Origin: an uncultured Akkermansia sp.
Lineage (GTDB): Bacteria > Verrucomicrobiota > Verrucomicrobiia > Verrucomicrobiales > Akkermansiaceae
NCBI GenBank assembly: GCA_949296365.1
Contig: CASFPZ010000010.1
Span: 1-64,000 of the forward strand
Length of the DNA: 64,000 bases
Direction: 5' to 3'
Made by a program: the position numbers and the translations under genes
In this document: piece by piece, positions 21,575-47,366 of the stretch
Numbering within the stretch: position 1 is the first letter of the stretch
Layout: every line of letters begins with the position of its first letter
The notes under the pieces: model-generated
The model's input: the letters and a program-made list of their open reading frames with translations, nothing else
Told to the model about the DNA's origin: nothing
Database searches by the model: none

Positions 21575-24328
21575 GTGAATGTGATACGCAGCTTTACAAC
21601 GGGATGGGGGTCTGAGGGAAAACTATATTCTCTTCCGGCTCTTGCCGAGGTGGGTTATGACAAACTGAGCCGTTTGCCCGTTTCGATCCGAATTGTGTTG
21701 GAATCTCTGCTAAGAAATTGCGATGGGTTGAAAGCTACTGAGCAGGATGTCGCCAATTTAGCGTCATGGAATGCAAAATGTCCTGGCAGTTACGAGATCC
21801 CCTTTACTGTAGCACGGATTGTCTTGCAGGACTTTACCGGTGTACCGCTGTTGGTAGATCTGGCTGCGATGCGTTCCGCAGTAGCTAAGTTGGGCAAAAA
21901 TCCTGACTGCGTGGAACCTCTCGTCCCTGTCGATCTGGTGGTTGATCACTCGGTGCAGGTAGATTGGGCTGGTTGTAGCGACGCCCTCGAAAAAAATCTT
22001 GATAAGGAATTCTCCCGTAATGCTGAACGATATGAATTCTTAAAATGGGGACGGGACGCCTTTAAAACTTTTTCTGTGGTCCCTCCGTCGGTTGGTATTA
22101 TCCACCAAGTCAATTTGGAATACTTGGCTCGTGGTGTTATGGAACATGATGGGGTGTTCTTCCCTGATAGTTTGGTCGGAACCGATTCCCATACGACGAT
22201 GATTAATGGATTGGGCGTAGTCGGGTGGGGCGTAGGGGGCATTGAGGCTGAAGCCGGAATGCTTGGCCAACCGGTCACATTCCTTGTCCCAGAAGTGGTG
22301 GGGGTTCATATGTCTGGTCAACTGCGTGAAGGTGTGACTTCGACTGATCTGGCTTTGCATGTGACGGCTATGTTGCGGAAACACGGAGTTGTCGGAAAAT
22401 TTGTCGAATTTTTTGGTGATGGTGCGGCTGCCTTGTCTTTGCCGGATCGCGCAACGGTCGCTAATATGGCTCCTGAATACGGGGCGACGATGGGATTTTT
22501 CCCAATGGACGAACAGTGCTCAAATTATTTGCGAATAACTGGTCGGCGGGAAGAAGATGTCATAACCTACGAGAATTACTTCAAAGCTCAAGACCTCTGG
22601 GGTATGCCAAAAATCGGTGATATCGATTACACTGATATCCTGAACCTCGATCTTGGTTCTGTGTGCCCGGCTGTATCTGGTCCGCGGCGCCCTCAGGATT
22701 TGATCCCGTTGGATAAGTTGAAAGAGCGTTTTGAACTGCTTTTGAAAGCTCCTGTCAGTGACGGTGGGTATGGTAAGACCTCTGTGGATGAGGCTGTCGT
22801 AATCATGGATGCTCCAGCAGGAACGCCTCTCCCGGTAGATGGGTATGCTCAAGAAGTTCATATCAAAGATGGTAGCATCTTGATCGCTGCCATTACCTCT
22901 TGTACAAACACATCGAATCCTGGGTTGATGCTTGCGGCTGGCCTTGTTGCTAAAAAGGCTGTAGAACGAGGATTAACTGTACCGTCGTACGTCAAAACTT
23001 CTCTGGCTCCTGGTTCGCGAATTGCGTCTGACTACTTTGCGGCAAACGACTTGCAAGAGGCCTTGAATACCTTGGGGTTTCAGACGGCAGGGTATGGTTG
23101 CACGACTTGCATCGGTAACTCTGGCCCTCTCAATGGTAAACTTGAACAGTCTGTTCGCGAACATCAGATCGTTGGGGTCTCTGTCCTTTCTGGCAATAGA
23201 AATTTTGAAGCTCGTGTGCATGCCTCTGTAAAGGCTAATTTTTTGATGTCGCCTCCGCTGGTCGTAGCATTTGCGCTGGCGGGCCGAATCGATATTGACA
23301 TGGAACGTGAACCGTTGGGCAAGGACAAAGTGGGACGCGAAGTTTATCTCCGCGATCTGTGGCCAACTCGCGAAGAATTGGATAAAGCCCTCCAGAACTC
23401 ACTTCGGCCGGATATGTTTCGCCGTCGTTATGAAAAAGTCCTTTCGCTCAACGAACGTTGGCAAAAAATACCTGCTCCGAAAGGAGCCGTTTATGCTTGG
23501 AAAGATGATTCTACCTATATCCAGCAGCCACCTTTCTTCGATGATTACGATGGAACCCCAAAAGACATCACCGATATCGTTGGCGCAAGAGCGCTTGGCA
23601 TTTTTGGCGATTCGGTAACGACTGACCATATTTCTCCTGCTGGCGCTATTCGCGAAACGAGTCCTGCCGGGATTTATTTGAAATCGATGGGGGTTGACTG
23701 TCTCGACTTTAACTCTTATGGGTCGCGCCGTGGTAACGACAGGGTCATGACGCGTGGCACTTTTGCCAATGTCCGCGTCAAAAATCTGCTGGCTGGCGGT
23801 GTGGAAGGCGGTTACACGTTGTATTTTGGCCATCGCCCCGTATCTGTCCCCGACAAGGAGATCAAGACGGCAGTAGGCCAACCAACGTTTATTTATGATG
23901 CGGCGATGGCTTATCTGGCGGATAATACTCCGCTGATTGTTATTGGCGGTGAAGATTATGGCATGGGTTCGTCTCGCGACTGGGCTGCCAAAGGATCTCG
24001 CCTGCTTGGGGTACAAGCTGTCGTGGCTAAGAGTTTCGAACGTATTCACCGATCAAATCTCATTGGTATGGGTGTCCTTCCCCTTACTTTTGTTAATAAG
24101 GAAGACTACGATTGGATCTCTACTCTGAGAGATGCTGTTTTCTCTATTATTGGCTTGTCTAATGAGATTGCCCCTCGGCAACAGGTAATATTGCGCGTCC
24201 AGATTAACTCCGAATCCAAAGACATTCCCGTGTCTGTTCGCATCGATACGCCTATTGAAAAGGAATATTACCGCTCTGGGGGAATTCTTCCTTATGTGCT
24301 CGGGAAAATTATGAAAAAAACTTCATAA
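21575..24328 (+). CDS. acnA: Aconitate hydratase A (AcnA/IRP1 type)
   Basis: This 917-residue enzyme isomerises citrate to isocitrate through cis-aconitate in the TCA cycle and carries a [4Fe-4S] cluster. The cluster ligands are visible as C443 in SCTNTSNPG and C509 and C512 in [10 protein letters not shown], spaced as in IRP1 and AcnA. Other family features are [21 protein letters not shown], and the swivel domain with [16 protein letters not shown]. No ATG fits in frame near the start. GTG at 21575 gives MNVIRSF, with a second GTG two codons later. The stretch AATGTGATACG is repeated just before and across the start. Confidence 0.97.
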
Positions 24329-24435
24329 GTACATTGAGGTATGCGCAAGACGAACTGTTTCTCTTGGAGTAAAAGCGTTTCTGTGAAGTGATAAACTCCT
24401 CAAAAACTATAAGACTAGAGACCCGTTAAACGAAA

Positions 24436-24470
24436 GAAAGGCGCCAGTGTATGATCCTTTGGCGCCTTTC
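24436..24470. terminator. Bidirectional terminator between acnA and araC
   Basis: A perfect 11-bp inverted repeat, GAAAGGCGCCA at 24436-24446 and TGGCGCCTTTC at 24460-24470, forms a hairpin with a 13-base loop. It lies between the convergent acnA and AraC genes. Its T-rich tail is better on the minus strand. Confidence 0.75.
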
Positions 24471-24631
24471 ATGATCAGAGGTCAACGACAATTAAGAGAG
24501 TGGCGCCTAACGTGGACTCGGCTTACGTTGGCTCGAGAACTGAGTTGCGGACGCGGACATGACGTCGTCATTAATAGGCAACAGAGGGATCAGGAAGATG
24601 GGAGAGAAAGTGCCAATTGGTCTCTAGATAA

Positions 24632-25585
24632 TCATTTCCCTTTACTCTTTATTTTGTGCCGGGCTTGGCTGGTAGAGGAATGGTTGAGTTCTTGCAATTT
24701 GTTTCGGTATTGGCTGGGACTACACCCGACTCGTTTGGCAAAGAGCGAGGCAAAATGTTGTGATGAATAGAAACCACATTCGATAGCGATATCGGTGATG
24801 TTGTGATGCCCTGAGGCGAGTAATTCCTGCGCAGCCTTGATTTTGAGCTCGATGAGATAATCAGCTGGGGAGAACCCGGTTAACAACTTAACTTTATTGT
24901 TGAAGGCTGTTTGCCCCATGCCAAAAATATAGGCCAGTTCGCTGACTCGGATTTTTCTCGTGAAATCCTTGCAGAGCATTTCCGTCAAGGCATTGAGGAA
25001 TGTTCTGTCCGTATCTTCTTGATTGTTGTTGCGGGCTTTGAGGACACGGGCCAGTCGGATGACCAACGAATCGAGCAGAAAGTTGATTTGATCTTCGTAG
25101 CCAATGTCGCGTTGTACGAGTTCGAAATGAAATTGCCTAAAAATCTGGATGAGGTTGTTGCCGCGTGGCAGCACAGGGTTCTCATTGTTGACTAGAAGCC
25201 TCCCTATGGCCTGTTGTGTCTCCGGGCTAATGCGAGACCAACTGCCTAATTCTAGTTGCCCGTCTTTTGTAAAACTTTTTGGGTGTAGGATCATCCATGA
25301 CAATACTCCGCGATCCAGAATTTTATCAGGGCTTCCATGGTATTCCCATGGGCAAGTCACAAATGCTTCACCGGGGTAGAGTTGGTAATGTTTCCCTTCG
25401 ACAACCCATTTGTACGTGCCCTTGACGACGAAATTGAGCTCGATCCCATCGTTGTAGTGCATGTCGAGAGAATGCGGATCAATGCCGGAAAACTTGAGAA
25501 CCCCTACTTCCATCAAGTAATGAGAAAAGGGGGCTAACAAGGGACAATCGTTCCAATGGACGAACAATGGCTTTTCGGCATTCAT
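24632..25585 (-). CDS. AraC family transcriptional regulator
   Basis: This 317-residue protein has an N-terminal cupin-like sensing domain (DGIELNFVVKGTYKWVVEGK, YPGEAFVTCPWEYHG) and a C-terminal double helix-turn-helix of AraC/XylS type at about 205-300 (FGMGQTAFNNKVKLLTGFSP; ITDIAIECGFYSSQHFASLF). Such regulators usually activate nearby sugar-use genes when a ligand binds the cupin. It is divergently oriented to the GH2/corrinoid-methyltransferase operon, with a 132-base shared intergenic region. It is therefore the natural candidate for controlling that operon, an inference from position. Confidence 0.92.
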   Translation of the reverse strand: MNAEKPLFVHWNDCPLLAPFSHYLMEVGVLKFSGIDPHSLDMHYNDGIELNFVVKGTYKWVVEGKHYQLYPGEAFVTCPWEYHGSPDKILDRGVLSWMILHPKSFTKDGQLELGSWSRISPETQQAIGRLLVNNENPVLPRGNNLIQIFRQFHFELVQRDIGYEDQINFLLDSLVIRLARVLKARNNNQEDTDRTFLNALTEMLCKDFTRKIRVSELAYIFGMGQTAFNNKVKLLTGFSPADYLIELKIKAAQELLASGHHNITDIAIECGFYSSQHFASLFAKRVGCSPSQYRNKLQELNHSSTSQARHKIKSKGK

Positions 25586-25717
25586 TATTAGGCGGTATTT
25601 TAACCTTTTAAATCAGGACGTGAAGGAAAATGTGTATAATTCGTCAAAGTAAAATTCTGCACGCATTCAAAAACTGTTTGTGGTAAGCTTCCAATATCAC
25701 AATACTTCAGTTGGCCT
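25586..25717. promoter_or_regulatory. Divergent promoter region of araC and the GH2 operon
   Basis: This 132-base AT-rich gap lies between two divergent starts and should contain both promoters and any AraC-type half-sites. No confident -35/-10 pair or repeated operator could be assigned by eye. Confidence 0.45.
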
Positions 25718-28700
25718 ATGTTAGCTCATTTCCTGAAATGTTTGATGATGTTGATGTCGACTATGCTGGTCATAGCGCCTGCATTTGGGGCGTCTTGGAA
25801 GTCATCGCTTAAGATCGATGCTTCCGATCCTTCCAAAGCGGCTCCATGGGGTCGCTTTGAGTCGTATGAATATCCTGCGAAAGATGTTGCCCCCTGGACG
25901 GGGCCGCGTAAAGTCCTCTTTGGAACGCCGCTCGAATTGAATTTCGAAGGCCTCGAAGAAGGTCAGGACTGTATGATCAGGGTGTCGTTTCTGAGCGATG
26001 CTCCTCGCGAAATGGCAATTGATGTTAATGGAACGGAAATCGAGTCTTCGTTGAAGGTCGATCGGGGCGTCGTTCGGCAAGGTGAATGGGTTATTCCTTC
26101 GTCTCGCCTTTATTCCGGTACGATTGCTCTGACTATTAACCCTATCGTTGGTTCGAATGCTGTCATCCAAACGTTGGAAATCTTCACGCGCGATGGACGC
26201 CGGCTTCGCCCTGGTAAACGCAAGGAATTCCGTCCTCCTACTCAGGATGAACTGGAAGCTCTCGTTGTCCCAATGCAAAAGATGGCGCCGCGTCCGTCAC
26301 TGGTGACTGGGACCCAATCGCCTGTGATTTCATTGAATGGCGAATGGCTGTTCTCGGCCTCTGGTAAGGGCAATGACTTGAAACCTATCCAAGTCCCTGG
26401 CGAATGGAAGATGCAAGGCTTTAATGTGGCACCTAAGGCATTTGCCAAGTACGTGCGTACAATTGATGTCCCAGCTGATTGGGCAGGACGTCAAATTATA
26501 CTGCGTTTTGATGCTGTTCATGCTGTGTGCCGAATTTTTGTAAACGGTACAGAAATCGGTGGCCACGAGGGCGGGATGATTCCGTTCTCGATCAATGCTA
26601 CAAAGGCAATCCGTCCTGGAGCCCGGAACTCCATTGAAGTGCTGGTGCAGAGCGAATCTGTAGCTGACTCTGTAGGTTGCATCTCTCAATATGCTGCCCA
26701 CCAGGTCGGCGGGATCCTTCGAAAGGTGGCGATGATGGCCTTGCCGAATCTCTATGTCGCCTCAGATAACAACTATACTGTCCTCAAAGGTCAAGATGCG
26801 GTGCTTCATTACGATGTCGAACTTGCCAATGTTTGTGCAACTTCTCGTAAGGCAACGATGAACCTTGAATTGAAGGATGCTTCTGGACAAGTAGTGGCTT
26901 CTCAGGAAATTGTTGTTTCAGCAGAAGGTTCTGGCTTGACCCCGGCTCATTCGGCATTAACTGTCAAAAATGCCAAGTTGTGGACGTCCGAAACGCCTAA
27001 TCTCTATACGCTTTCCTGCACCTTGAGCGAGGCTGGACAAATCCTTTCCCAGCATGTCCGCAAAGTCGGTTTGCGTACTGTCCAAGTGAAAGGTAACCAA
27101 CTTTTTGTAAACGAAAAACCGGTAAAACTTTTTGCTGTATGCCGACATGAAGTTCATCCGCTGCGCGGTAGGAGCTTGACTCCAGAACTTTGCCGCAAAG
27201 ACGCTGAGCTTTACAAAAACGCTGGTGTCAACACGATCCGAACCTCTCACTATCCACCGAGCGAAGAATTCTTGGATATTTGCGACGAATTAGGCTTGTT
27301 TGTTGAATCGGAAGCTGCCGTGTGCTGGATCCAGCATGGAGCTAGCCCGGTTTGGAAACGCTGGAATTATCAAAGCCCTGACTATTTCCTCTATTTACTG
27401 CGTCCGTCGCTCGATCAAATTGCTGCGTATCGCAATCACCCATCTATCATTATGTGGTCTTGGGGCAATGAATCCCGATGGAGTTGTCTGTGGGAAAAAG
27501 TCGCTGAAGTAACTCGCCGGTATGAAAAGACTCGTCCTTTCGTTTTCCATGACCAATGTTGGGGTGGTTTTAACAACGCTGGCAGTAAAGGCGATATTGC
27601 TAACTATCATTACCCCTCAGAAAATAACTCCGACGAATGGAGCAAGGTTGGTAAACCGGTGTGGTTTGGCGAATATGCCCACTTGCAGTGTTATAATCGC
27701 CGCGAATTAGCTACTGACCCTGGCATTCGTGAAGACTGGGGACGCCCACTGCAACGCATGGTCGACTTGATGTGGGAACAACCTGGTTGCCTCGGTGGAT
27801 CGATCTGGAGTGGAATTGACGATGTCTTCCATTTGCCCAGCGGAGACCTTTGCGGATATGGTCATTGGGGACCTATCGATGCATGGAGACGCCCCAAGCC
27901 AGAGTACCACGGCTTGCGTATGGCCTACACTCCCTTCCGGGTGTTCTCGGTAGATGCCCGCGACGGTAAAACCCTCAAACTCTCTGTGCAAAACCGTCAG
28001 AACTTCCTGAACCTGAAAGAAAACTCGATCGAATGGAGCTGCGGCGACAAAAAAGGTAAAATCGAAGCTGACCTTCCGCCTCATGCCAAGGGCGAGCTAG
28101 TCGTCAATGCGGCCTACAAACCTGGTGATTCTGTTGCCATTTCTGTCAAGGATCCCTCAGGACGGGAAATCGCTCGTGAAGTTATAGAAATCCCAGGAGG
28201 TAAGCTCCCCGCAGAAAATGTTCCAGGTAAAATTTGCCCTGTACAAATGGGTGATCAAGCCCTTAGGGCTGGTTCTATGGAGTTGCCTCTGCCTGTTCCC
28301 ATGGTTCTTGATCTGAATGGATCGGGTGGCGCGGCTGGCCCTGCTGGCAGTACTCTCGCCAATGTGATCGAACCCTATACTCCGGTAGAACCCTGGTCTT
28401 GGAAGAAAAATGCTGCGGGTGCTGATGGCGTTGCTACCTGGACGGGAGAAGGCGCCTTGGGCAAAGGTACGTTGGTCGCAGAGACCCAGCAGGATGGATC
28501 TGTCTTGATTCATTATGCGGTGACGGTAAATCGTGATGTTAACCCGCGTCAATGGGGACTTGTATGGACGCTTCCTCGTTCTTTCGATACGATGGATTGG
28601 TTCCGCAATTCACATTGGTCCTGGTATCCCAATGACCAAATTGGTCGTCCTCGTGGTACGGTCAAGGCTCAACCTGTCTTCAGAAAATGGGTCGAAGAAC

Positions 28701-29038
28701 CTCGCAAAGTGCCTACTGGCGCTTGGAAAGATGATGCGAATGCCTTGGGGTGCAATGACTTCACGGCTACCAAGATGCGCATTCGTCGCCTATCCATGCT
28801 GGATGCCAAAGGTTGTGCTATAACCTTCCGTCCAGTTCCTAAAGGTCAACCGCAAGCGGTCCGGGCTTGGGTCGTTTCGCAGAATCCTCAGGATGGCATT
28901 CGCGTATTGATTGCCGGTTTTAACACGGGGGGATCAGATGGCTTCTTTGCTACCCACTACAGTACCGAGCGTCGTCCTATTAAAAAAGGTGAAACAATTC
29001 ATTCCGAATTCCTCATTTCTGTTTCGAATGTTCAATGA
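25718..29038 (+). CDS. Glycoside hydrolase family 2 (beta-galactosidase-like), secreted
   Basis: This 1106-residue protein has a signal peptide (cleavage near AFGA, residue 24), an N-terminal region of about 170 residues not typical of LacZ, then GH2 sugar-binding, Ig-like and TIM-barrel domains. The catalytic acid/base is probably Glu585 in WGNESRW and the nucleophile Glu652 in WFGEYAH. RTSHYPPSEEFLDICDELG is the standard GH2 barrel signature. After about residue 740 come extra beta domains reaching the C-terminus. GH2 members release beta-galactose, mannose, glucuronate or other residues, so substrate is open. It is the first gene of an operon: the UroD-like gene starts 21 bases later. Confidence 0.9.
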   Translation: MLAHFLKCLMMLMSTMLVIAPAFGASWKSSLKIDASDPSKAAPWGRFESYEYPAKDVAPWTGPRKVLFGTPLELNFEGLEEGQDCMIRVSFLSDAPREMAIDVNGTEIESSLKVDRGVVRQGEWVIPSSRLYSGTIALTINPIVGSNAVIQTLEIFTRDGRRLRPGKRKEFRPPTQDELEALVVPMQKMAPRPSLVTGTQSPVISLNGEWLFSASGKGNDLKPIQVPGEWKMQGFNVAPKAFAKYVRTIDVPADWAGRQIILRFDAVHAVCRIFVNGTEIGGHEGGMIPFSINATKAIRPGARNSIEVLVQSESVADSVGCISQYAAHQVGGILRKVAMMALPNLYVASDNNYTVLKGQDAVLHYDVELANVCATSRKATMNLELKDASGQVVASQEIVVSAEGSGLTPAHSALTVKNAKLWTSETPNLYTLSCTLSEAGQILSQHVRKVGLRTVQVKGNQLFVNEKPVKLFAVCRHEVHPLRGRSLTPELCRKDAELYKNAGVNTIRTSHYPPSEEFLDICDELGLFVESEAAVCWIQHGASPVWKRWNYQSPDYFLYLLRPSLDQIAAYRNHPSIIMWSWGNESRWSCLWEKVAEVTRRYEKTRPFVFHDQCWGGFNNAGSKGDIANYHYPSENNSDEWSKVGKPVWFGEYAHLQCYNRRELATDPGIREDWGRPLQRMVDLMWEQPGCLGGSIWSGIDDVFHLPSGDLCGYGHWGPIDAWRRPKPEYHGLRMAYTPFRVFSVDARDGKTLKLSVQNRQNFLNLKENSIEWSCGDKKGKIEADLPPHAKGELVVNAAYKPGDSVAISVKDPSGREIAREVIEIPGGKLPAENVPGKICPVQMGDQALRAGSMELPLPVPMVLDLNGSGGAAGPAGSTLANVIEPYTPVEPWSWKKNAAGADGVATWTGEGALGKGTLVAETQQDGSVLIHYAVTVNRDVNPRQWGLVWTLPRSFDTMDWFRNSHWSWYPNDQIGRPRGTVKAQPVFRKWVEEPRKVPTGAWKDDANALGCNDFTATKMRIRRLSMLDAKGCAITFRPVPKGQPQAVRAWVVSQNPQDGIRVLIAGFNTGGSDGFFATHYSTERRPIKKGETIHSEFLISVSNVQ

Positions 29039-29059
29039 CAATTAACGTAATTCCCTACA

Positions 29060-30151
29060 ATGACATCTAAAGAAAGATTACTAGAAGCAATTAATTTCCG
29101 AGAAACGGATCGTCCTCCGGTTTATTGCAGCGTCGTTCCCCAGTTAGCCGAAAAGTTGGGGAAATACCTGGGTATGCCTGCTGGCCCTGCATTGGATTCT
29201 CCGATGAGCGGACTTCGCATCTCATGGATGGACATGATGTTGAAATTGGGAAGCGACTGCGTTTGTATCGCGTCGTGTGCTCCTGATAATGCACCTACCG
29301 TTCACCATGAAGATGGCCTGATTGTGAACGAATGGGGCATCGGCATGCGCAATCATGGTCTGTACGACGATTTCGAAGTTCATCCTCTGGCCGATGTAGA
29401 AAGTGTCAAGGATGTAGAAGATTATCCTTTCCCAGATCCTGAGGCTCCTGGGCGTTTCCGTCTTGCCGAAGAGGCTATGGCAAAATATGGAAAAGATTAC
29501 GGGATTATTGGCGATTTGGAATGTTCGATTTTCGAGACTTCTTGGTACTTGGTCGGGCTGGAAAAACTGTTCATGGGCATGGCGATGGGAGAAGAGTGGG
29601 TTGACGCCTTGTTTGACAAGGTAGCCGCTTTCCACACTGCTGTTGGCAAAAAATTGGCTGCAATGGGGGCTGATATCATCTGGTGCGGCGATGACTTGGG
29701 GTCTCAAAATGGCCCCATGATTAGTGTCGACATGTTTGATCGCTATTTCTTCCCTCGTATTCAGAAGATGTTCGCTGCTTTCAAAGAGGTCAACCCGAAA
29801 GTTAAGGTCGCTTGGCATAGCTGCGGCTCCATCCTTCCGTTCATCCCGCGTTTTATTGAAGCTGGTCTCGATATCTTGAACCCGCTCCAACCTCTGGCAA
29901 CTGGCATGGACCCTGTCTGGTTAAAGGAAACCTATGGCGATAAACTTGTCTTCTTTGGGGGCATCTGTGTGCAAAAACTCTTACCTCAGGGAACCCCTCA
30001 AGAAATTGAAGCCGAAGTTCATCGCCGTATCGATATCCTCTCTCAAGGAGGGGGCTACATTGTGGCGCCTGCTCACAATATTCAGTCCGATACGTCAGTT
30101 GAAAATGTCCAGGCTTTCTTCGACGCTGTTAAATCCTGGAAAAGAAAATAA
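29060..30151 (+). CDS. UroD-like corrinoid methyltransferase, HxC...H type
   Basis: This 363-residue cytoplasmic protein has the uroporphyrinogen decarboxylase fold in the branch that transfers methyl groups to or from corrinoid proteins (MtaA/MtbA/CmuA relatives), not the heme branch: the classic UroD N-terminal motif for porphyrin binding is absent. Zinc-site candidates are His253 and Cys255 in WHSCGS and His339 in PAHNIQSDTS, so the third ligand is His where MtaA-type enzymes have Cys. It lies directly upstream of a corrinoid protein gene. It may be the substrate-side methyltransferase, an inference from the altered motif and gene order. No Shine-Dalgarno motif precedes the ATG. Confidence 0.85.
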   Translation: MTSKERLLEAINFRETDRPPVYCSVVPQLAEKLGKYLGMPAGPALDSPMSGLRISWMDMMLKLGSDCVCIASCAPDNAPTVHHEDGLIVNEWGIGMRNHGLYDDFEVHPLADVESVKDVEDYPFPDPEAPGRFRLAEEAMAKYGKDYGIIGDLECSIFETSWYLVGLEKLFMGMAMGEEWVDALFDKVAAFHTAVGKKLAAMGADIIWCGDDLGSQNGPMISVDMFDRYFFPRIQKMFAAFKEVNPKVKVAWHSCGSILPFIPRFIEAGLDILNPLQPLATGMDPVWLKETYGDKLVFFGGICVQKLLPQGTPQEIEAEVHRRIDILSQGGGYIVAPAHNIQSDTSVENVQAFFDAVKSWKRK

Positions 30152-30195
30152 TAACTGATCTCGTTCATTATTCACTCTAAACACTTAGATCAATT

Positions 30196-30837
30196 ATGGC
30201 AGATACAGATGCTTTATACGAATCTATCTTGAAGGGTCGCCCTAAACCCGCTCAGGAAGCTACTCAAAACCTTGTCAATGCTGGCATGGCTCCCGATGTG
30301 ATTATTCACGATCACATGATACGCGCGATGGAAGAAATTGGCCGTCGTTTCGAACAAGCTCAGGCTTTCGTCCCTGAATTGTTGATGGCTGCCGCTGCGA
30401 TGAAAAAATGCCTGGAAATCCTCAAGCCTTTGATGAAGAAAGACAATTCGGCTCAGATGGGCTGTATCGTGGTTGGCACTGTCCGTGGCGATATGCATGA
30501 TATTGGTAAAAACCTCGTCGCCTCCATGCTTGAAGGTTGCGGGTTTGAAATTGTCAATCTCGGAACGGATGTCTCGGCTGAAAAATTTGCCGCTGCCGTC
30601 AAAGAACACAAGGCTGATATTGTCGGGCTTTCTGCTTTGTTGACTACGACGATGCCTTATATGAAAGAAATCATTGAGACATTGAAAACCGAAGGCCTTC
30701 GCGATCAGGTCAAAGTTATGATCGGCGGAGCCCCGGTGACCGAAGAATTCGCTCAGTCAATTGGAGCTGATGGTTATAGCGCCAATGCTAATGCTGCTGT
30801 TACTCTTGCACGTTCCTTAGTCCGAAAATCCGCTTAA
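30196..30837 (+). CDS. Methyltransferase-associated corrinoid protein
   Basis: This 213-residue protein matches the MtaC/MtbC/MttC family: an N-terminal helical cap (about 1-85, with HDHMIRAMEEIGRRFEQ and PELLMAAAAM) and a B12-binding Rossmann domain. The lower axial ligand of cobalamin is His101 in GDMHDIGKN. The further cobalamin motifs SALLTTTM and GGAPV follow. It accepts a methyl group on cob(I)alamin from a substrate methyltransferase and passes it to a second one. It is encoded 44 bases after the HxC...H UroD-like gene and upstream of an MtaA-like gene, completing a three-component set. Confidence 0.94.
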   Translation: MADTDALYESILKGRPKPAQEATQNLVNAGMAPDVIIHDHMIRAMEEIGRRFEQAQAFVPELLMAAAAMKKCLEILKPLMKKDNSAQMGCIVVGTVRGDMHDIGKNLVASMLEGCGFEIVNLGTDVSAEKFAAAVKEHKADIVGLSALLTTTMPYMKEIIETLKTEGLRDQVKVMIGGAPVTEEFAQSIGADGYSANANAAVTLARSLVRKSA

Positions 30838-30853
30838 TGTGGTATTGTGATAG

Positions 30854-30890
30854 TCCCTCCCCTCGGAGATTTTTTCCCGAGGGCGGGGGC
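30854..30890 (+). promoter_or_regulatory. GC-rich hairpin inside the methyltransferase operon
   Basis: CCTCCCCTCGG pairs with CCGAGGGCGGGGG across an A/T-rich loop. It lies between the corrinoid protein gene and the MtaA-like gene and is followed by a pyrimidine-rich but not T-only stretch. It may attenuate transcription or protect the upstream mRNA. A reading frame starting at 30847 runs through it and is not believed to be translated. Confidence 0.6.
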
Positions 30891-30912
30891 TCTTCTTACT
30901 CTTGTTCTAATT

Positions 30913-31926
30913 ATGAAAAGAAATATGAGACAATGGGTACAGGACATTATTGATTCGCCTCAATGTATGGCTATGCCTGTACTTTCCTTCCCGGCTGTTT
31001 CCTTGATGGGCATTACTGTTAAAGAATTGATTAACAGTAGCGATCTCCAGGCTCAGGCCATGAAAACTGTTGCAGATCAGACTCCTTCTGTTGCTTCTGT
31101 GAGTTTGATGGATTTGTCGGTAGAAGCTGAGTGTTTCGGCGGTACTCTCCATGCCTCTGATGACGAAGTCCCGACGATTATCGGCCACATCATCGAAACG
31201 ATGGACGATGTCGAAAAACTCCAAATCCCCCAGGTTGGAGAAACTGGCCGCTCTGGCCTTTGTGTTCAGGCTATTGGCAAAGCCCTCGAACTTATCCAGG
31301 ATCGTCCTGTCCTGGCCGGCATGATTGGCCCTTTTTCGCTCTCTGGCCGTCTGATGGATATGACGGGTATTATGATGGCGTGCTATGATTCTCCCGAAAT
31401 GGTTCATGCACTTCTTGATAAAGCCACTGCTTTCTTGATCGAATATGCTAAGGCATTCAAAGCCATTGGGGCGAACGGCATTGTTATGGCTGAACCTATG
31501 GCGGGCTTGCTCTCTCCTGATTTCGGAGATGAATTTTCATCTCGCTACGTCAAGCAAATTGTAGATGCTGTCCAGGACGATTCCTTTGTCGTCATTTATC
31601 ATAATTGTGGTGGCAGTGCTGCCTTAATGGTTGATTCTATTGTTGAGACTGGCGCCGCTGGCTTCCATTTTGGCAACGCTATCAATATGGCAGAAGTCAT
31701 GCCTCAACTTCCTGCTAATGTCTTGGGAATGGGCAATGTCGACCCTGCTGTCCAGTTCTGTGAAGGTACTCCAGACTCCGTCCGCAAAACGACTCTCGAC
31801 CTCATGGAAGTATGTGCCAAGTGGCCGAACTTCGTTGTATCCTCTGGTTGCGATATCCCGCCTGCTACCCCCTGGGCCAATATCCATGCCTTCTTTGAGG
31901 CTGTCCGCGATTTTAACGCTCGTTAA
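30913..31926 (+). CDS. MtaA-like methylcobamide methyltransferase (UroD family)
   Basis: The start was placed at ATG 30913 (MKRNMRQWVQ), after the intergenic hairpin, giving 337 residues; ATG 30925 is an alternative. This UroD-fold protein keeps the full zinc motif of MtaA/MtbA: His230 and Cys232 in YHNCGG and Cys313 in SSGCDIPP. Enzymes with this motif activate a thiol or other acceptor and take the methyl group from methylcobalamin on the corrinoid partner. In a bacterium the acceptor is not coenzyme M and is more likely tetrahydrofolate or a thiol, which is inference. It shares only low similarity with the UroD-like protein at 29060. Confidence 0.88.
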   Translation: MKRNMRQWVQDIIDSPQCMAMPVLSFPAVSLMGITVKELINSSDLQAQAMKTVADQTPSVASVSLMDLSVEAECFGGTLHASDDEVPTIIGHIIETMDDVEKLQIPQVGETGRSGLCVQAIGKALELIQDRPVLAGMIGPFSLSGRLMDMTGIMMACYDSPEMVHALLDKATAFLIEYAKAFKAIGANGIVMAEPMAGLLSPDFGDEFSSRYVKQIVDAVQDDSFVVIYHNCGGSAALMVDSIVETGAAGFHFGNAINMAEVMPQLPANVLGMGNVDPAVQFCEGTPDSVRKTTLDLMEVCAKWPNFVVSSGCDIPPATPWANIHAFFEAVRDFNAR

Positions 31927-31952
31927 ACTATTCTTTATTTTTGTATCTCTAG

Positions 31953-31981
31953 CGGGAAGATTAACCTCTTCCCGTTTTTTG
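31953..31981 (+). terminator. Terminator of the GH2/methyltransferase operon
   Basis: CGGGAAGA (31953-31960) pairs with TCTTCCCG (31967-31974) across a six-base loop and is followed by six T residues. It ends the transcription unit that begins with the GH2 gene. Confidence 0.93.
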
Positions 31982-32092
31982 TTTAGCAAAATTTTGTAAA
32001 TCTCGCTAAGATATTAAGAAGCATTGATTTACATGAAGTTGATGAATGCGCATTCGTCTTACAGGCTCTGCCTTCTGTCGGAAGCTTGACGT

Positions 32093-32929
32093 CTAATACC
32101 AATCGTGTTTTTCATTCTTGTTTAATGTCGCGATAGATTCCATCTCCTCATCTGTCAATGAAAAGTTGAATAACGAGATATTCTCCCGAATATGTTCAGG
32201 ATTGCTGGACCCGGGAATGACGGTTATACCCCTTTGAAGATCCCAACGTAAAATGATCTGTGCTACCGATTTCTGATGAGCTGTAGCAATTCTTCGCAAT
32301 ATTGCATTGTTCAATAGGGCTCCTGTATATCCTCTTCCCCCAAGGGGATACCAACTTTGTACAATGAGCCCTTGCTGTTGAATGTGCTCGACAACGAGAT
32401 CGTCTTGGTAGAATGGATGAATTTCATTCTGAACTAGGGCTGGTCTTACTGATACTTTCCCCAGAAAATCACCGAGTTCTTGAATGTAATAACAGGAAAT
32501 GCCGGCTGATCGTACTTTCCCAGCTTGGATAGCCCTTTCGATTGCGCAATATGCTTCTACATCGTTTGTGGCTGGGTGGTGTAGAAGAAGCATATCAATG
32601 TAACCTAACCCTAATCTGGTCAACGCTTCATCGATCGCTTTGTCGGCGTTGCCGTACTGGTCCGGATAGAGCTTGGTCTGAACAAAAATTTCTTCTCGCG
32701 GAATACCTGCTTGACGAACTCCTTGGCCGACCTCAACTTCATTTCTGTAAAAGGAGGCTGTATCAATGAGTCGATATCCGTGTTGTATGGCGATAGCTAC
32801 TGCATTGATGCATGTATCCCCATGCAGCGAGTAAGTCCCAATTCCTACTACAGGAAGTTCCATCCCATTGTTTAACCGAATCGTAGGCGAAACGTCATTT
32901 CCTCTACTTGTTTGTCTGATACCGCTCAT
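32093..32929 (-). CDS. Aldo/keto reductase
   Basis: This 278-residue NADPH-dependent oxidoreductase has the AKR (beta/alpha)8 fold and reduces aldehydes or ketones such as sugar aldehydes and 2,5-diketogluconate. The catalytic tetrad is visible: Asp56 and Tyr61 in DTASFYRNE, Lys86 in VQTKLYP and His117 in LLLHHP. The cofactor region ends with VIPGSSNPEHIRENI. It is a single gene, convergent with the methyltransferase operon and divergent from the GH36-like operon. A role in sugar metabolism is suggested only by the neighbourhood. Confidence 0.92.
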   Translation of the reverse strand: MSGIRQTSRGNDVSPTIRLNNGMELPVVGIGTYSLHGDTCINAVAIAIQHGYRLIDTASFYRNEVEVGQGVRQAGIPREEIFVQTKLYPDQYGNADKAIDEALTRLGLGYIDMLLLHHPATNDVEAYCAIERAIQAGKVRSAGISCYYIQELGDFLGKVSVRPALVQNEIHPFYQDDLVVEHIQQQGLIVQSWYPLGGRGYTGALLNNAILRRIATAHQKSVAQIILRWDLQRGITVIPGSSNPEHIRENISLFNFSLTDEEMESIATLNKNEKHDWY

Positions 32930-33221
32930 GCTTCTTGTCCGTTCTATTCAAGCCGATTATACGTTTGATTGGAACCTGGTAAAATCCTTTGTGTGCAAGT
33001 TTTACCTCGCGATATTCCTACGGGGTATGCCTCAAAATCAGGGAAAAGTGACAATTCTGTCCCCTCCTTCTTGTCGGAAATTTTCATTAAGAGAGTATTT
33101 CCCCATGTAATAGAAGCAGAAAAATTCGGATTAGTGCCGATAGCGGACCTCGCGATGTGCATAATTCAACAAAGTTGTATTATGAACGCAAAGGAAACAA
33201 AGACGTGTTATGTTAGAGAGC
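32930..33221. promoter_or_regulatory. Divergent intergenic region
   Basis: About 290 bases lie between the aldo/keto reductase (-) and the GH36-like operon (+). They should carry both promoters. Short overlapping frames here (32868-33110, 32969-33286) look like chance. No operator or structured RNA was recognised. Confidence 0.4.
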
Positions 33222-35705
33222 ATGGAATCGAAATTGTTGGGTTTGTTGTTGGTGGTATTTTCTGGTTGGGCATCCGCCCAAACTAGTATTCGACAAGACT
33301 CAGAATGGGTGACCCTGGCCAATCAGCAAAACACGCTTGCCTTTAATCTTAACAATGGTTTGTATTATATTTTGGACGCCCAGGGGAGAAAAACAATCGA
33401 TTATGCATATTTTCAGTCTGGCGCTTTGCATTCCAAAGATAAGGAAGCTGTGCGCACGTTTTCTGTTGTCGACGTGCAGGATGAATTAGGGAAAGGCAAG
33501 CGTCTGACCATTAAGGCGGCGTACAAGGATGATGTCGATGTAATATGGCAAGCGACTATGTACGACCAATCTCCTTACATTGTGTTTAATATGGGGGTTG
33601 AAAATGATACGCCACAGGATTACCGGTTGTCTGTATTTCATCCTCTTACCAGTCGCACCTCATATGCCGGAGAGGACAACTCAGTGAAATTCCAAGTTTT
33701 GGATGGCCATGGCGGTGGCGCTCAGACGTATGTGAAGTCTGGTGTGTCGTCTGCTGGTTCGTTCAACAATTTATTGTTTCGCTTTGGCGAAGGTAAAGCA
33801 AGTCGAATTTTTGTTGCCGGTGGCCTTACTTATAGGGATTTCGAAAAATTTGTGGCTGTGAGCCGCCAAGACAAGCGCATGAGTGTCGATATTTATGCTG
33901 AAGATCCTGTGGGCAAAGGAATTAAACCGGGGATGCGGTATTTGCCGGACGAGCGATTTTACGTCTGCTTGAATAATTCCAATCCTTTTGAGGCTCTTGA
34001 ATTGTATGGGAAGACCTTAAAGACGGCGCAGCAAATCAGACTGAATTATTACGATTTCCCGACGGAATGTTTATGGTATGCCAGTTTCTACAACAGGGAT
34101 AAAGGCAGACTGCGTTTCAATGATACGAAGGGCGCCGTGGAAGAAATGGATCGCGCGATCCAATCCGGAATTACTCGATACACGCGGGTGGCTATCCGTC
34201 TGGTGCCAGATGCATACGGTCCCAATAACCAACAGGGGTGGTGGGACGACAAACATTGGGGTATGTATGGAGACCCTATGTCAACAGAAGGACCGCATTA
34301 TGTTGCACCCTACTTGACGACGAAAAGTTGGGCTGGTGAGATTATCAAACGGGGTGGTATTCCGATTACTTATTTTCAGGGTATTCGACGGTCGGAAGAT
34401 TATGCCGAAGCACATCCGGACCACATGTTGTTCAACGTAACTCGCAAGGTGATGAACCAGCCCCGACGCTTGATGTTCAAAGTACAACCCGGGAAGGAAT
34501 ACGGCGATCAAGATCAATTTGAAGTGGCTGGAGGGTATTATACCCATTGGTGGACAGATAAAATGCTGTGGAGCTATGACATGACGGATCCGGGTTTTGT
34601 CCAACACATGGAGGAGGTGTATCGAAACCTGAGCGACGCTGGAATTGCCGGGATCATGTATGATTATCCGGACTTAACAGGTTGGGCATATGAAGGTGGA
34701 TTCGAAGACAAATCGGCTACGACAGCCTATGCGTACCGTGAAATCTTCCGTCTGGCGTATGAAGGGTTGGGCCCCCAGTGTTATCTCGATGAACGTAATT
34801 TGTTGCGAGGATCGGATATTACATTAGGTCTTGTGGCTTCGCAGCGAGTTTGGGCTGATACTGATGTGATTACGCCTGAGATGGTGACGCGTTGTGGGTT
34901 GCGCTGGTACAAAAACCGAGTGGTGGTGAACTACGATATGGATGCCAAAGATCCTGTTGGGGTTCAACCGTTGGCGAACAGGGATGGCTGTCGTTCAATG
35001 TTGACGATGTGTTATGTGACGAGCGGCAGATTCCTGATGGGGCGCGGATTTGCTCAATTGAGCCAAGAAGAATTACACGACTTCACTCGTACATTCCCTT
35101 ACCATATCTTGGCGCAGAGCGCTCGCCCGTTGGATGCATTTCACAGTCGCGACCTTTTTTGCCGGGTATACGATTTCCCGGTAAATGCCGATTGGCATCA
35201 AGTAACGTTTTACAATCCTGATGCCCAACAGGAGGATTCCTTGTCGGTTGCTTTATCGGGGGCATTGAATGATGGTGGCATGGCTATGGATTCTCAGGCT
35301 AGTTATCACGTCTATGATTTCTGGAATGATCGCTATGTTGGCTGTCTCAAAGGTTCTGCTATGCTCAGTCAAACATTGCGCCCTGGTGAAGCTAGGATGC
35401 TCTCCGTTCGTAAGAAACAGGAAGTCCCGCAGTACATTTCTACAAACCGCCATGTGATGCAGGGGTTGATTGATATGAAATCCTGTATTTGGAACGAGCA
35501 AACACAAACGTTGGAGGGATGTTCACAAGTTGTGGCGAAGGAACCCTATGCGATTGTCGTAGCAACGAACGGCAAGATGCCCATGGGCGTAGAAGCTCAA
35601 AGGGCTGATGCTAATTGGGAACCTGTTCCAGGTGCTGACGGATTGGTCAGGGTCATCTTGAAGTCCGACCAAAACCAGGACGTTTGCTGGAAACTTAAGT
35701 TTTGA
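33222..35705 (+). CDS. Putative GH36-like glycoside hydrolase, secreted
   Basis: The start was placed at the second ATG (MESKLLGLLLVV), whose signal peptide ends GWASA; a start four codons earlier is possible. The 827-residue protein has an N-terminal beta-sandwich, a central TIM-barrel (about 265-600) and a C-terminal beta domain, the GH-D clan layout of alpha-galactosidases. GIMYDYPD near residue 480 is a candidate for the strand-end Asp nucleophile, and RVWADTD further on could supply the acid/base. Sequence similarity to characterised GH36 enzymes is not strong by eye, so the family call is tentative. It starts a three-gene operon with the RbsD-like and GH116 genes. Confidence 0.65.
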   Translation: MESKLLGLLLVVFSGWASAQTSIRQDSEWVTLANQQNTLAFNLNNGLYYILDAQGRKTIDYAYFQSGALHSKDKEAVRTFSVVDVQDELGKGKRLTIKAAYKDDVDVIWQATMYDQSPYIVFNMGVENDTPQDYRLSVFHPLTSRTSYAGEDNSVKFQVLDGHGGGAQTYVKSGVSSAGSFNNLLFRFGEGKASRIFVAGGLTYRDFEKFVAVSRQDKRMSVDIYAEDPVGKGIKPGMRYLPDERFYVCLNNSNPFEALELYGKTLKTAQQIRLNYYDFPTECLWYASFYNRDKGRLRFNDTKGAVEEMDRAIQSGITRYTRVAIRLVPDAYGPNNQQGWWDDKHWGMYGDPMSTEGPHYVAPYLTTKSWAGEIIKRGGIPITYFQGIRRSEDYAEAHPDHMLFNVTRKVMNQPRRLMFKVQPGKEYGDQDQFEVAGGYYTHWWTDKMLWSYDMTDPGFVQHMEEVYRNLSDAGIAGIMYDYPDLTGWAYEGGFEDKSATTAYAYREIFRLAYEGLGPQCYLDERNLLRGSDITLGLVASQRVWADTDVITPEMVTRCGLRWYKNRVVVNYDMDAKDPVGVQPLANRDGCRSMLTMCYVTSGRFLMGRGFAQLSQEELHDFTRTFPYHILAQSARPLDAFHSRDLFCRVYDFPVNADWHQVTFYNPDAQQEDSLSVALSGALNDGGMAMDSQASYHVYDFWNDRYVGCLKGSAMLSQTLRPGEARMLSVRKKQEVPQYISTNRHVMQGLIDMKSCIWNEQTQTLEGCSQVVAKEPYAIVVATNGKMPMGVEAQRADANWEPVPGADGLVRVILKSDQNQDVCWKLKF

Positions 35706-36333: not shown

Positions 36334-39300
36334 ATGAGATCAATGCAGAAAAATTTACTGGTTGTTGCGTTTAGTTTAGGTTGTTTAGCGTCAGGGTATA
36401 GTGCTGTTGTACCTAATGAATCGCTTATACTGCCAGACAAAAATTTGCCGAAGGAATGGGTGAAGTCGTTGTACGAACGTGGTAAACCCCGGGTGGTTAC
36501 TTCTCGGCAAGGCTTGATGCACGTTGGTATGCCCGTGGGTGGTTTGTTTTGCGGCACTGTGTATTTGGGCGGAGACGGGAAACTGTGGTTGTGGGATATT
36601 TTCAATGACAACCGCGAAGGAATTGTCCCCAAGTTAGTAAAACGACAGGTTACAGGAACTCAGCAAACCTTGAGGAGCCGCGATGGCGCTGCCTATTATG
36701 CGCCAGAGTCGACTCAGCCTTCGTTGTTCCAACGCGGGTTCCCATTAACACGAATGAACGTTGGCGATGTCGCTGGTTTTGCTCCTGGCTCAGCTCGTGA
36801 GAGTAATGCCAGCGATGGGGGAGATCCTCTCGATTATTCGAATCAGGATCACTTTCAGCAAGGGTTTGCTATTAAAACTGGAGATCAAGTGCGCTCTCTC
36901 GATGTAAATGGTTGGAAACAGGTCTCTTTTACGGGATCGTATCCGATCGGCACGGTCAAGTATAGCGATCCACAATCTCCCGTAACTGTCAAACTCGAGG
37001 GGTATTCGCCATTTATTCCATTGAATACGAAGGACTCGTCGTTGCCTTGCACGATTATGAGTTACACGATTGCTAATGTCTCTAACCAGGTTGTTGTAGG
37101 CGAGATTGGTGGTTGGCTCGAAAATGGCGTTTGTTGTAACTCGGGTTTCGAAAATCCTCTGAATGGAACTCGAGTTAATTCGGTGTTGACTGGTAATTCC
37201 CAAGGCTTGTTGATGACGGCAAATAGCGAACAGAAAAAAATTACTTCGTCTCGTAAGGATATCCCATTCGAAGATTTCGAAAAGGATAATTATGGTAGTT
37301 GGAAGGTTGAAGGAACTGCTTTCGACCAAAGTCCGTTGGATAATGCTCGTATCCCGGGATACATGGGGCAGATCGGCATGCAGGGTTCTCGAGCCGCAGT
37401 TTCACACAATGTGAGGTCTGGCGGTGATGTCAATGCGGGCGATGGGCACAAAGGTCGCTTGACGAGCCCTGAGTTCACGATAGAGCGCAAATACATTAAC
37501 TTTATGATTGCAGGGGGCAATCGGCCCAAAGAGGTCGGTTTGCGTCTGTTGATTGACGGCAAAACGGTGAAAAGCGCTGCGGGCCGCAACAGTAATAAAC
37601 TGCGTTTCGACTATTTCGATGTATCTGCATACCAGGGACAGAAGGCTCAGCTTGTCATTGAAGACAATGCTACAGGAGGTTGGGGCAATGTCATTGTCGA
37701 CGATATTGTCTTTTCTGACGTTCCGGAAAAAACATCAACTCCTGTCGAAAAGGCAGCAGATTATGGTTCGTTTTTCTTAGCCGTTTCTCCCCATGATGAC
37801 GCTGAAACTCGTTATGTCGCCTCTCTGCCTCCCAAAAATACAGCAGAAATTCTGTTGTCTGGTAAAAAAGGAGTCCCAAAGGTGAATGTAGGGTTTATCA
37901 ACAAGGCTCCGATAGGGGGAATCTCTCGTTCATTTCATTTGCAACCCGGAGAATCGACAACGGCGACATTTGTCATTGCTTGGCATTTTCCCAATGTGTA
38001 CTTGCACACTAAAGGGGATTCCGGGACGGTTGATGGCTCTGGCAAGCAAGGAGGACGCCATTATGCCGCTTACTTTAAAAATGCAGCCGACGTAGGGCAG
38101 TATGTGATTGAAAATTTGCCGCGATTGAGTCAGGAGACTCATGATTGGCGCGACACTTGGTATGATTCGACATTGCCTTACTGGTTCCTGGATCGAACTT
38201 TCGCAAACACCTCTACGTTAGCGACAACAACTTGTCATCGCTTTAAGGATGGACGATTCTATGCCTGGGAAGGAATCGGAGCTTGTGCTGGCACATGTAC
38301 GCATGTTTGGCAGTATGCTCAGGCCCCTGCTCGTTTATTCCCGGATATCGAACGATATACTCGCGAATTTGTCGATTTGGGAATTGGTTGGACTGCTGAT
38401 TTGGGGCGTATTGGTATGCGGGCTGAACATCACATGGGGCCTGCCATAGATGGCCAGTGTGGCCGTATCATGGGCATGTGGCGAGAACATACGATGTCGG
38501 CTGATGATAGTTTCTTGAAACGTATTTGGCCCAAAGCTAAAAAATCTGTGCAATACGTTCTGAATCAGGATACTGACAAAGACGGCATTTTGGATACGGC
38601 GCAGGACAACACGCTCGATGCTGCCTGGTTTGGCAAGATCGCCTGGACGAGCATTGAGGCGTTAGGCGCTTGGCGTGCGGGCGAAGAAATGGCTCTAGAA
38701 ATGGGTGACGTGGCCTTTGCGGAAGAATGCCGCAATCGAATAATAGCAGGCCGCCGAAACATCGAAAAAGAGTTGTTTAACGGTAAGTGGTTTATCCAGA
38801 AACCTCAACCCGGCAAGGAAAACGTCTTTGGCTCTTACAATGGTAGTTTCATTGACCAACTTTTTGGTCAAAGCATGGCTTATCAATGTGGCTTGGGGAC
38901 TCTCGTGTCTCCTGCGATGCAGAAAAAAGCCCTCCAATCGATCTGGCAGAATAACTTCAGTTTTGATCTGGGCCCGTATATCAAGACTGTCAAACCAGTG
39001 GGGCGTGCCTATTGTTTGCCTGGTGAAGGTGGAGTTTTGATGTGTACCAATGCGCTTAATGAGGAAAACCCATATGGCGGTGGTAGCTGGACGCATGGAT
39101 ACTTCAATGAATGCATGACGGGGTTCGAACACCAATATGCCTCTCACCTGATGAAGGCGAATATGGTGACCGAAGCTCTGGCGGTCACTCGCGCAATCCA
39201 TGATCGTCACGACGCTGAAAAACGCAATCCCTATAATGAAATTGAATGCTCGGATCACTATGCCCGCGCAATGGCTAGCTATGGTACGTTTGTGAATGCT

Positions 39301-39639
39301 TGCGGTTATTCTTACCATGGACCTCGTGGTAAAATGAGTTTCGATCCGCGTATCTCGCCAGGGAATTTCAAGGCTGCTTTTACTGCGGCAGAAGGCTGGG
39401 GAACTTATAGACAAGTGCTCAAGTCGGGGAAACCCTCTGCTGAGATCGTACTGAAATACGGTCGGCTTGTGCTTCGTGAGTTGTCGCTGGCTTGTATGGC
39501 CCGACAGAGTGATATTAGAGTTTTGGTCGATGGTAAACCTGTTCCGTTCAAACTTCAGAAGAACAAAATCTCGTTCAATTCTCCGGTGACTCTGTCCCGT
39601 GGTACGAGGCTTGTCGTTTCTGTCGCGTCTGGTCAGTAA
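36334..39639 (+). CDS. GH116 family glycoside hydrolase with inserted sugar-binding domain
   Basis: This 1101-residue secreted protein belongs to GH116 (beta-glucosidase/glucosylceramidase GBA2 type). The N-terminal GBA2-like domain shows GMPVGGLFCGTVYLGGDGKL and LWLWDIFN. The (alpha/alpha)6 catalytic domain (about 610-1080) has GACAGTCTHVWQYAQ, DTDKDGILDTAQDNTLDA with the likely acid/base Asp, and SWTHGYFNECMTGFEHQ. Between the two, residues about 305-470 form an extra beta-sandwich with ERKYINFMIAGG, LLIDGKTVKSA and ATGGWGNVIVDDIVF, the same module inserted in some levanases. Signal peptide cleavage is near GYSA. The operon ends at the hairpin at 39659-39700. Confidence 0.87.
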   Translation: MRSMQKNLLVVAFSLGCLASGYSAVVPNESLILPDKNLPKEWVKSLYERGKPRVVTSRQGLMHVGMPVGGLFCGTVYLGGDGKLWLWDIFNDNREGIVPKLVKRQVTGTQQTLRSRDGAAYYAPESTQPSLFQRGFPLTRMNVGDVAGFAPGSARESNASDGGDPLDYSNQDHFQQGFAIKTGDQVRSLDVNGWKQVSFTGSYPIGTVKYSDPQSPVTVKLEGYSPFIPLNTKDSSLPCTIMSYTIANVSNQVVVGEIGGWLENGVCCNSGFENPLNGTRVNSVLTGNSQGLLMTANSEQKKITSSRKDIPFEDFEKDNYGSWKVEGTAFDQSPLDNARIPGYMGQIGMQGSRAAVSHNVRSGGDVNAGDGHKGRLTSPEFTIERKYINFMIAGGNRPKEVGLRLLIDGKTVKSAAGRNSNKLRFDYFDVSAYQGQKAQLVIEDNATGGWGNVIVDDIVFSDVPEKTSTPVEKAADYGSFFLAVSPHDDAETRYVASLPPKNTAEILLSGKKGVPKVNVGFINKAPIGGISRSFHLQPGESTTATFVIAWHFPNVYLHTKGDSGTVDGSGKQGGRHYAAYFKNAADVGQYVIENLPRLSQETHDWRDTWYDSTLPYWFLDRTFANTSTLATTTCHRFKDGRFYAWEGIGACAGTCTHVWQYAQAPARLFPDIERYTREFVDLGIGWTADLGRIGMRAEHHMGPAIDGQCGRIMGMWREHTMSADDSFLKRIWPKAKKSVQYVLNQDTDKDGILDTAQDNTLDAAWFGKIAWTSIEALGAWRAGEEMALEMGDVAFAEECRNRIIAGRRNIEKELFNGKWFIQKPQPGKENVFGSYNGSFIDQLFGQSMAYQCGLGTLVSPAMQKKALQSIWQNNFSFDLGPYIKTVKPVGRAYCLPGEGGVLMCTNALNEENPYGGGSWTHGYFNECMTGFEHQYASHLMKANMVTEALAVTRAIHDRHDAEKRNPYNEIECSDHYARAMASYGTFVNACGYSYHGPRGKMSFDPRISPGNFKAAFTAAEGWGTYRQVLKSGKPSAEIVLKYGRLVLRELSLACMARQSDIRVLVDGKPVPFKLQKNKISFNSPVTLSRGTRLVVSVASGQ

Positions 39640-42860: not shown

Positions 42861-42967
42861 ACCTGCAAAGTGTAAAACTAAACCGGGGTCACGAAAATCA
42901 TAAAGTGATGTAATTGATAAATGGTTTGTTTGATAGACTTGATCCCGAAGAGCCGTACCTTGATAAG

Positions 42968-47273: not shown

Positions 47274-47366
47274 GGCAGGCAACAGAAAAACTAACTATAT
47301 AATTAGACACTACTCCTAAAATTCTCTTATTTCAAGCATTCAATGAGTCAAATGCGGAAACTTGAA

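Follow-up and report, generated by a model that had tools for sequence, protein, structure and literature searches.

The closest described relatives of the system considered here are the Odm, Mtv, Vdm, Mto and Cdm systems, three-component corrinoid enzymes that comprise O-demethylases and a dehalogenase, in which a substrate-side methyltransferase (MT1) of the UroD superfamily (MtvB, OdmB, VdmB, MtoB and CdmB are all members; PMC13222342) is encoded in one cluster with a small corrinoid protein and a second methyltransferase (MT2). Many glycans of plants, algae and bacteria carry methyl ether caps, which can stand in the way of normal sugar breakdown, and the enzymatic sugar demethylation that we found described requires oxygen: in marine Flavobacteriia a P450 enzyme demethylates 6-O-methyl-D-galactose, and GH2 and GH16 genes are present in the cluster (PMC10033563). 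This oxygen-dependent cluster is a precedent for the pairing of a GH2 enzyme with demethylation. An operon in the genome of an uncultured Akkermansia sp. (contig CASFPZ010000010.1, positions 1 to 64,000, hereafter the window) encodes candidates for the same three kinds of methyltransferase component and begins with the gene for an apparently exported GH2 enzyme. We propose, as a reading that we give about an even chance of being right, that this operon and a second cluster, on contig C42 of the same genome (99.6% complete), together form an AraC-controlled system that removes the methyl group of an O-methylated sugar anaerobically, by way of a corrinoid protein. The features of the window locus are as follows.

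24632-25585, minus strand: AraC-family regulator, transcribed away from the operon (PF12833 and PF00165, both above cut-off)
25639-25667, plus strand: operator-like site ATTCGTCAAAGTAAAATTCTGCACGCATT, common to the window, the corresponding operon of a congener (G015) and the C42 cluster
25718-29038, plus strand: exported GH2 enzyme with LacZ-type fold (Pfam, subfamily alignment, signal-like N-terminus, fold match)
29060-30151, plus strand: UroD1, proposed substrate-side methyltransferase (MT1), UroD superfamily, with H253, C255 and H339
30196-30837, plus strand: corrinoid protein (B12-binding_2 and B12-binding domains, DxHxxG motif)
30852-30891, plus strand: stable RNA hairpin between the corrinoid and UroD2 genes (folding free energy of the 75-nt gap and its z-score)
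30913-31926, plus strand: UroD2, MtaA-like, proposed acceptor-side methyltransferase (MT2), with an H-x-C...C motif
31951-31976, plus strand: intrinsic terminator (10-bp stem, U tail, z = -4.0)

Among 143 relatives searched, an ortholog of UroD1 was found in one congener only, G015, where the array lies beside the same aconitase gene as in the window (identities of 70% for AraC, 67% for GH2, 78% for UroD1, 74% for the corrinoid protein and 73% for UroD2); a search of G015 found no UroD1-like gene outside the operon. The GH2-UroD-corrinoid-UroD order, which the original prediction, made from the window sequence, proposed to look for in relatives, is conserved, but in this single congener, and the operon is sporadic because the other congeners inspected carry different genes after aconitase. 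Conservation of the array beside the same aconitase gene, taken together with the shared operator-like site, indicates that the arrangement is more than chance. An aldo/keto reductase gene at 32093-32929 was considered as a further operon member and left out, as it does not adjoin the operon in G015.

No activator of the RACo/RamA type (PF14574) was detected anywhere in the window genome, which extends to the whole genome the original prediction's remark that no RamA-type gene lies nearby. What is present instead, on contig C42, is a protein with a MetH-type activation domain (PF02965, 44.5 bits, above cut-off). It belongs to a cluster in which an AraC gene (AraC') diverges from the order RhaT-UroD'-corrinoid'-activator. 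AraC' is 50% identical to the window AraC and corrinoid' 60% identical to the window corrinoid protein. The RhaT protein is above the Pfam cut-off for its family and falls below the curated L-rhamnose/proton symporter equivalogs (268.8 against 468 bits at best, E 6.8e-80). In G015 a 244-amino-acid PF02965 protein (26.2 bits against a cut-off of 25; 38% identical to the C42 activator) is encoded within the operon, between the corrinoid and UroD2 genes; the window has the hairpin at this position, and a check of the window revealed no remnant of the activator gene. The two clusters of the window genome therefore complement each other: UroD2, the only candidate acceptor methyltransferase, is found only in the window cluster and the only stand-alone activator only in the C42 cluster, and the G015 operon holds both. 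On C42 we also noted two GH38-like genes and GH92, ROK and major facilitator superfamily transporter genes beyond the activator gene, on the opposite strand (locus L025, 53-11748).

The AraC-operon intergenic regions of all three loci (window, G015 and C42) contain a 29-bp operator-like site, ATTCNNNAAANNANAANNNYGMACGCATT. Within the window genome and G015 it occurs exactly at these three loci only, and the exact matches hold by construction because these sites served to define the motif. There is none elsewhere with up to two mismatches; the remaining matches have three, and a reversed-pattern control gave none. In a three-way comparison 19 of 34 columns were shared against a null maximum of 18 (100 shuffles), and G015 and C42 shared 25 columns against a null maximum of 23 (300 shuffles). 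The absence of further sites and the three-way comparison are the independent evidence here. This shared putative operator suggests that one class of signal acts on both clusters.

As to layout, the original prediction had an AraC gene opposite a one-strand GH2-UroD-corrinoid-UroD array with gaps of 21, 44 and 75 bp, and its coordinates hold, as does its description of a methyltransferase trio (UroD-like, MtaC-like and MtaA-like UroD) paired with a secreted GH2. The gap figures are exact given a UroD2 start at ATG 30913; an in-frame GTG also lies upstream at 30847, and we prefer the ATG because the G015 ortholog begins at the equivalent position. The "one strong terminator" of the same account is real (31951-31976), but the statement is incomplete because another stable hairpin, not mentioned there, separates the corrinoid gene from UroD2 (the 75-nt gap folds with -28.8 kcal/mol, z = -2.9). 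An Rfam scan of 24000-33300 revealed no known RNA.

UroD1 matches PF01208 (UroD superfamily), and its structural model (predicted local distance difference test score, pLDDT, 92) has MtaA of Methanosarcina mazei as nearest fold (Z 31.6), true UroD structures scoring equally well. It is distant from CdmB (E 0.003), the sole structure found from that branch; CdmB is not among the fold matches listed, which excludes nothing. We found no characterised member of the branch that holds UroD1 and UroD'. UroD2 has the metal motif H-x-C...C by alignment and scores below the MtaA/CmuA cut-offs (TIGR01463, 123.7 against 235.4 bits; MtaA_Meth, 102.8 against 400). At the matching places UroD1 has H253-x-C255...H339, and its relatives carry either C or D at residue 255. 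From these metal-ligand motifs we infer that UroD1 acts on the substrate side and UroD2 on the acceptor side. Our reasoning for this is that UroD2, with its thiol-rich site, would suit methyl transfer to an acceptor, and UroD1, whose site is poorer in thiols, would suit methyl ether activation. UroD2 is also the best MT2 candidate because no MtrH-type second methyltransferase (PF00809) was detected in the window genome or in the cluster, the only two PF00809 proteins of the genome being MetH and the product of a separate 308-codon frame, probably FolP. A misannotated HemE was considered for both proteins and rejected: UroD1 and UroD2 score 18.8 and 63.3 bits against a hemE equivalog cut-off of 302.95, and a better, separate PF01208 match is encoded on contig C35.

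The corrinoid protein is of the MtaC/MtgC type, below the curated cut-offs of those families, with its DxHxxG motif read in the sequence as GDMHDIG, and it is 32% identical to the corrinoid domain of MetH. The window genome also encodes MTHFR and a complete MetH, which are available for methyl use.

The GH2 protein has PF02836, PF00703 and PF02837 above cut-off and, both here and in G015, a signal-peptide-like N-terminus. N584-E585 and E652, which from general knowledge of GH2 enzymes we take to be catalytic, are invariant across the subfamily alignment. Its model is of moderate confidence (pLDDT 73) and matched LacZ-type enzymes over the full length, and its best score of 208.9 bits is well under the curated beta-galactosidase cut-offs (1284 bits). 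A beta-glucuronidase, and hence 4-O-methyl-glucuronate as the sugar, was considered and judged less likely, the LacZ type being nearer by fold; the alignments stopped short of the carboxylate-binding loop. The subfamily is rare, present in 8 of 387 genomes (E<=1e-80) of the phylum, which gene content suggests to be Verrucomicrobiota. Besides the two operons, it lies no more than two genes from a UroD gene in two further genera (G393 and G480). In a quick tree, UroD' of C42 and the UroD of G393 are sisters (support of 97 by the Shimodaira-Hasegawa-like approximate likelihood ratio test, SH-aLRT). Both genomes are UroD-rich, with 40 and 28 first-look candidates, and because of these many genes the chance of such proximity is estimated, very roughly, at 6-7% in each. 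Elsewhere in the window genome, on contig C21, a paralog 49% identical to the operon GH2 has no UroD gene beside it (locus L241, 2718-6032); sialate-lyase-like, epimerase-like and ROK-like genes were read from the sequence a few genes off.

Surveys of the same 387 genomes placed UroD1 relatives (E<=1e-25) in 97, the richest of which has about 50 candidates, and window-like corrinoid proteins in 162; genes of high-GC relatives were called by a simple composition-based script, and some neighbours may be missed. A contig scan of genomes gave four distant loci and no more. Neighbours of UroD1 relatives include GH106 (L081, L106, L108 and L109), GH78 (L110), GH123 (L083) and GH31 (L086), and FucU-like and symporter-like proteins were read from the sequence at L081. 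Outside the phylum, an FGGY-kinase-like gene was read beside UroD and corrinoid genes (L063) and a sugar-type ATP-binding cassette system beside a UroD gene (L064). Some loci in other families of the phylum contain several distinct UroD-like genes in a row (L105, 3909-14824; L156; L161), accompanied at L156 and L161 by corrinoid or RACo genes.

We favor the following mechanism. The exported, LacZ-type GH2 would act outside the cytoplasm on a glycan or glycoside and free a methylated sugar, and the sugar would be taken up, perhaps via the RhaT-family symporter of the C42 cluster. The metal site of UroD1 would bind the methyl ether and the methyl group would pass to the Co(I) form of the corrinoid protein, the demethylated sugar being freed for ordinary catabolism. 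UroD2 would then transfer the methyl group from the corrinoid to a one-carbon acceptor (tetrahydrofolate or a thiol such as homocysteine), and MTHFR and MetH would use the methyl groups. Oxidised corrinoid would be rescued by the MetH-type activator, supplied from C42 here and from the operon itself in the congener. The original prediction had left the substrate as an O-methylated sugar or a methoxylated aglycone. Of these, the sugar has gained independent support, because of the cluster with RhaT, the shared operator-like site, GH2-UroD proximity in two genera and the rhamnosidases beside UroD relatives; no specific support was obtained for the aglycone. RhaT and the rhamnosidase neighbours point to methylated 6-deoxyhexoses as the predicted substrates.

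Several observations weigh against this proposal. The LacZ-type GH2 points to a galactoside, as in the P450 clusters for 6-O-methyl-D-galactose, which also contain GH2 genes, while RhaT points to a 6-deoxyhexose, and the window and C42 sites, compared as a pair alone, are not significantly similar. GH2 paralogs in the window genome and G015 (n = 2) have no UroD neighbour, most UroD1 relatives have no adjoining corrinoid gene, and with the hairpin at 30852-30891 in between, UroD2 may not be coupled to the other genes of the operon. Finally, Pfam families adjoining UroD genes were too diverse, when compared with random places, to give a clean enrichment, carbohydrate families occurring in both, and the sugar-gene neighbourhood of UroD relatives therefore stays suggestive.

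The alternatives differ mainly in the part that they assign to the GH2 enzyme and to UroD1. It could be that the GH2 frees a methoxylated aromatic aglycone (for example from a flavonoid or lignan glycoside), which the trio O-demethylates in the manner of the MtvB, OdmB and MtoB systems. Methoxyaromatics are the substrates of the characterised UroD-type MT1 enzymes MtvB, OdmB, VdmB and MtoB (PMC13222342), and a glycosidase adjoining a demethylase would fit a glycoside. We nevertheless consider this unlikely given that the MtrH-type MT2 and RACo activator of those systems are missing here, that UroD1 is so distant from CdmB, that the partner cluster has an L-rhamnose-type symporter and that UroD relatives adjoin rhamnosidases and other polysaccharide enzymes.

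A slightly less probable scenario is that a small methylated molecule (methanol, methylamine, betaine or a haloalkane) is the substrate of the trio, with a functionally unrelated GH2 carried along under the shared regulator. Corrinoid trios are best known for such compounds and the corrinoid protein resembles the MtgC/MtaC types, but the GH2 gene comes first in the operon in both species, only 21 bp from UroD1 in the window, and its proximity to UroD genes recurs in other genera; moreover, a sugar symporter is found in the partner cluster, and UroD1 and UroD' fall in a branch for which no characterised member was found. Least probable in our view is a corrinoid module for methionine or one-carbon balance, that is, a split MetH-like chassis, with UroD1 carrying out some other sugar chemistry. 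A corrinoid protein plus a PF02965 activator does amount to the C-terminal half of MetH, the H-x-C...C motif of UroD2 is that of thiol-methylating enzymes, and many UroD1 relatives stand without a neighbouring corrinoid gene. Set against this, a complete MetH is already encoded in the genome, and MT1-like UroD and corrinoid genes adjoin in both clusters of the window genome, in G015 and at loci L063 and L026.

If sugars are indeed demethylated by a corrinoid route, this would account for the use of methylated glycans by anaerobes and would link the breakdown of glycans with vitamin B12 and one-carbon metabolism; it would also point to a role for an enzyme expansion in the phylum that is very large and as yet unexplained. 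A broader and distinctly more doubtful extension, which we offer tentatively, is that the phylum's large UroD-like family consists of enzymes that O-demethylate sugars anaerobically and hand the methyl groups on to corrinoid proteins used in common; the operon of the window would then, with its partner cluster, be a compact and complete example. We found no description of corrinoid demethylation of sugars in the literature, a weak negative as subscription journals were mostly uncovered. The window operon and partner cluster together contain every part that a test with purified proteins requires.

Further genes of the window were noted downstream of the operon. Glycosidases of families GH116 (36334-39639) and GH95 (44976-47282) lie near it. 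The GH116 gene adjoins one for an RbsD/FucU-family protein (PF05025, 35750-36313) with a signal-peptide-like start, unusual for a mutarotase, and between this and the operon an 831-amino-acid secreted-looking protein (33210-35705) has no Pfam or NCBIfam match. The genes at 41117-41740 and 42914-43861 encode proteins of the type I phosphodiesterase family that resemble each other; the first is much shorter and looks like a truncated duplicate. Between them (42093-42860) a single protein combines flavodoxin and two 4Fe-4S domains and might be a low-potential electron donor; no test made here linked it to the operon, none having been aimed at it.

With regard to known systems, the window trio departs from the Odm, Mtv and Cdm systems in that its MT2 is an MtaA-like UroD protein whereas theirs is an MtrH/CdmA-type folate enzyme, and in that its activator is of the MetH type whereas theirs is RACo. 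It is further set apart by its pairing with GH2 and RhaT and by the merely distant similarity of UroD1 to CdmB. We have not filed it as an Odm/Cdm member because an MtrH-type MT2 and RACo were looked for and neither was found. It has in common with MtaABC and MtgBC a corrinoid protein of the MtaC/MtgC kind, and UroD2 resembles MtaA; those systems, however, use an MT1 of the MtaB or MttB/MtgB type, and neither is encoded in the window or C42 cluster. The P450 route depends on a monooxygenase and yields formaldehyde, in contrast to the corrinoid route proposed here, which would need no oxygen. With MetH the window system has in common a related corrinoid domain and the PF02965 activation domain, but its modules are separate genes, and the homocysteine and folate modules of MetH are replaced by two UroD proteins.

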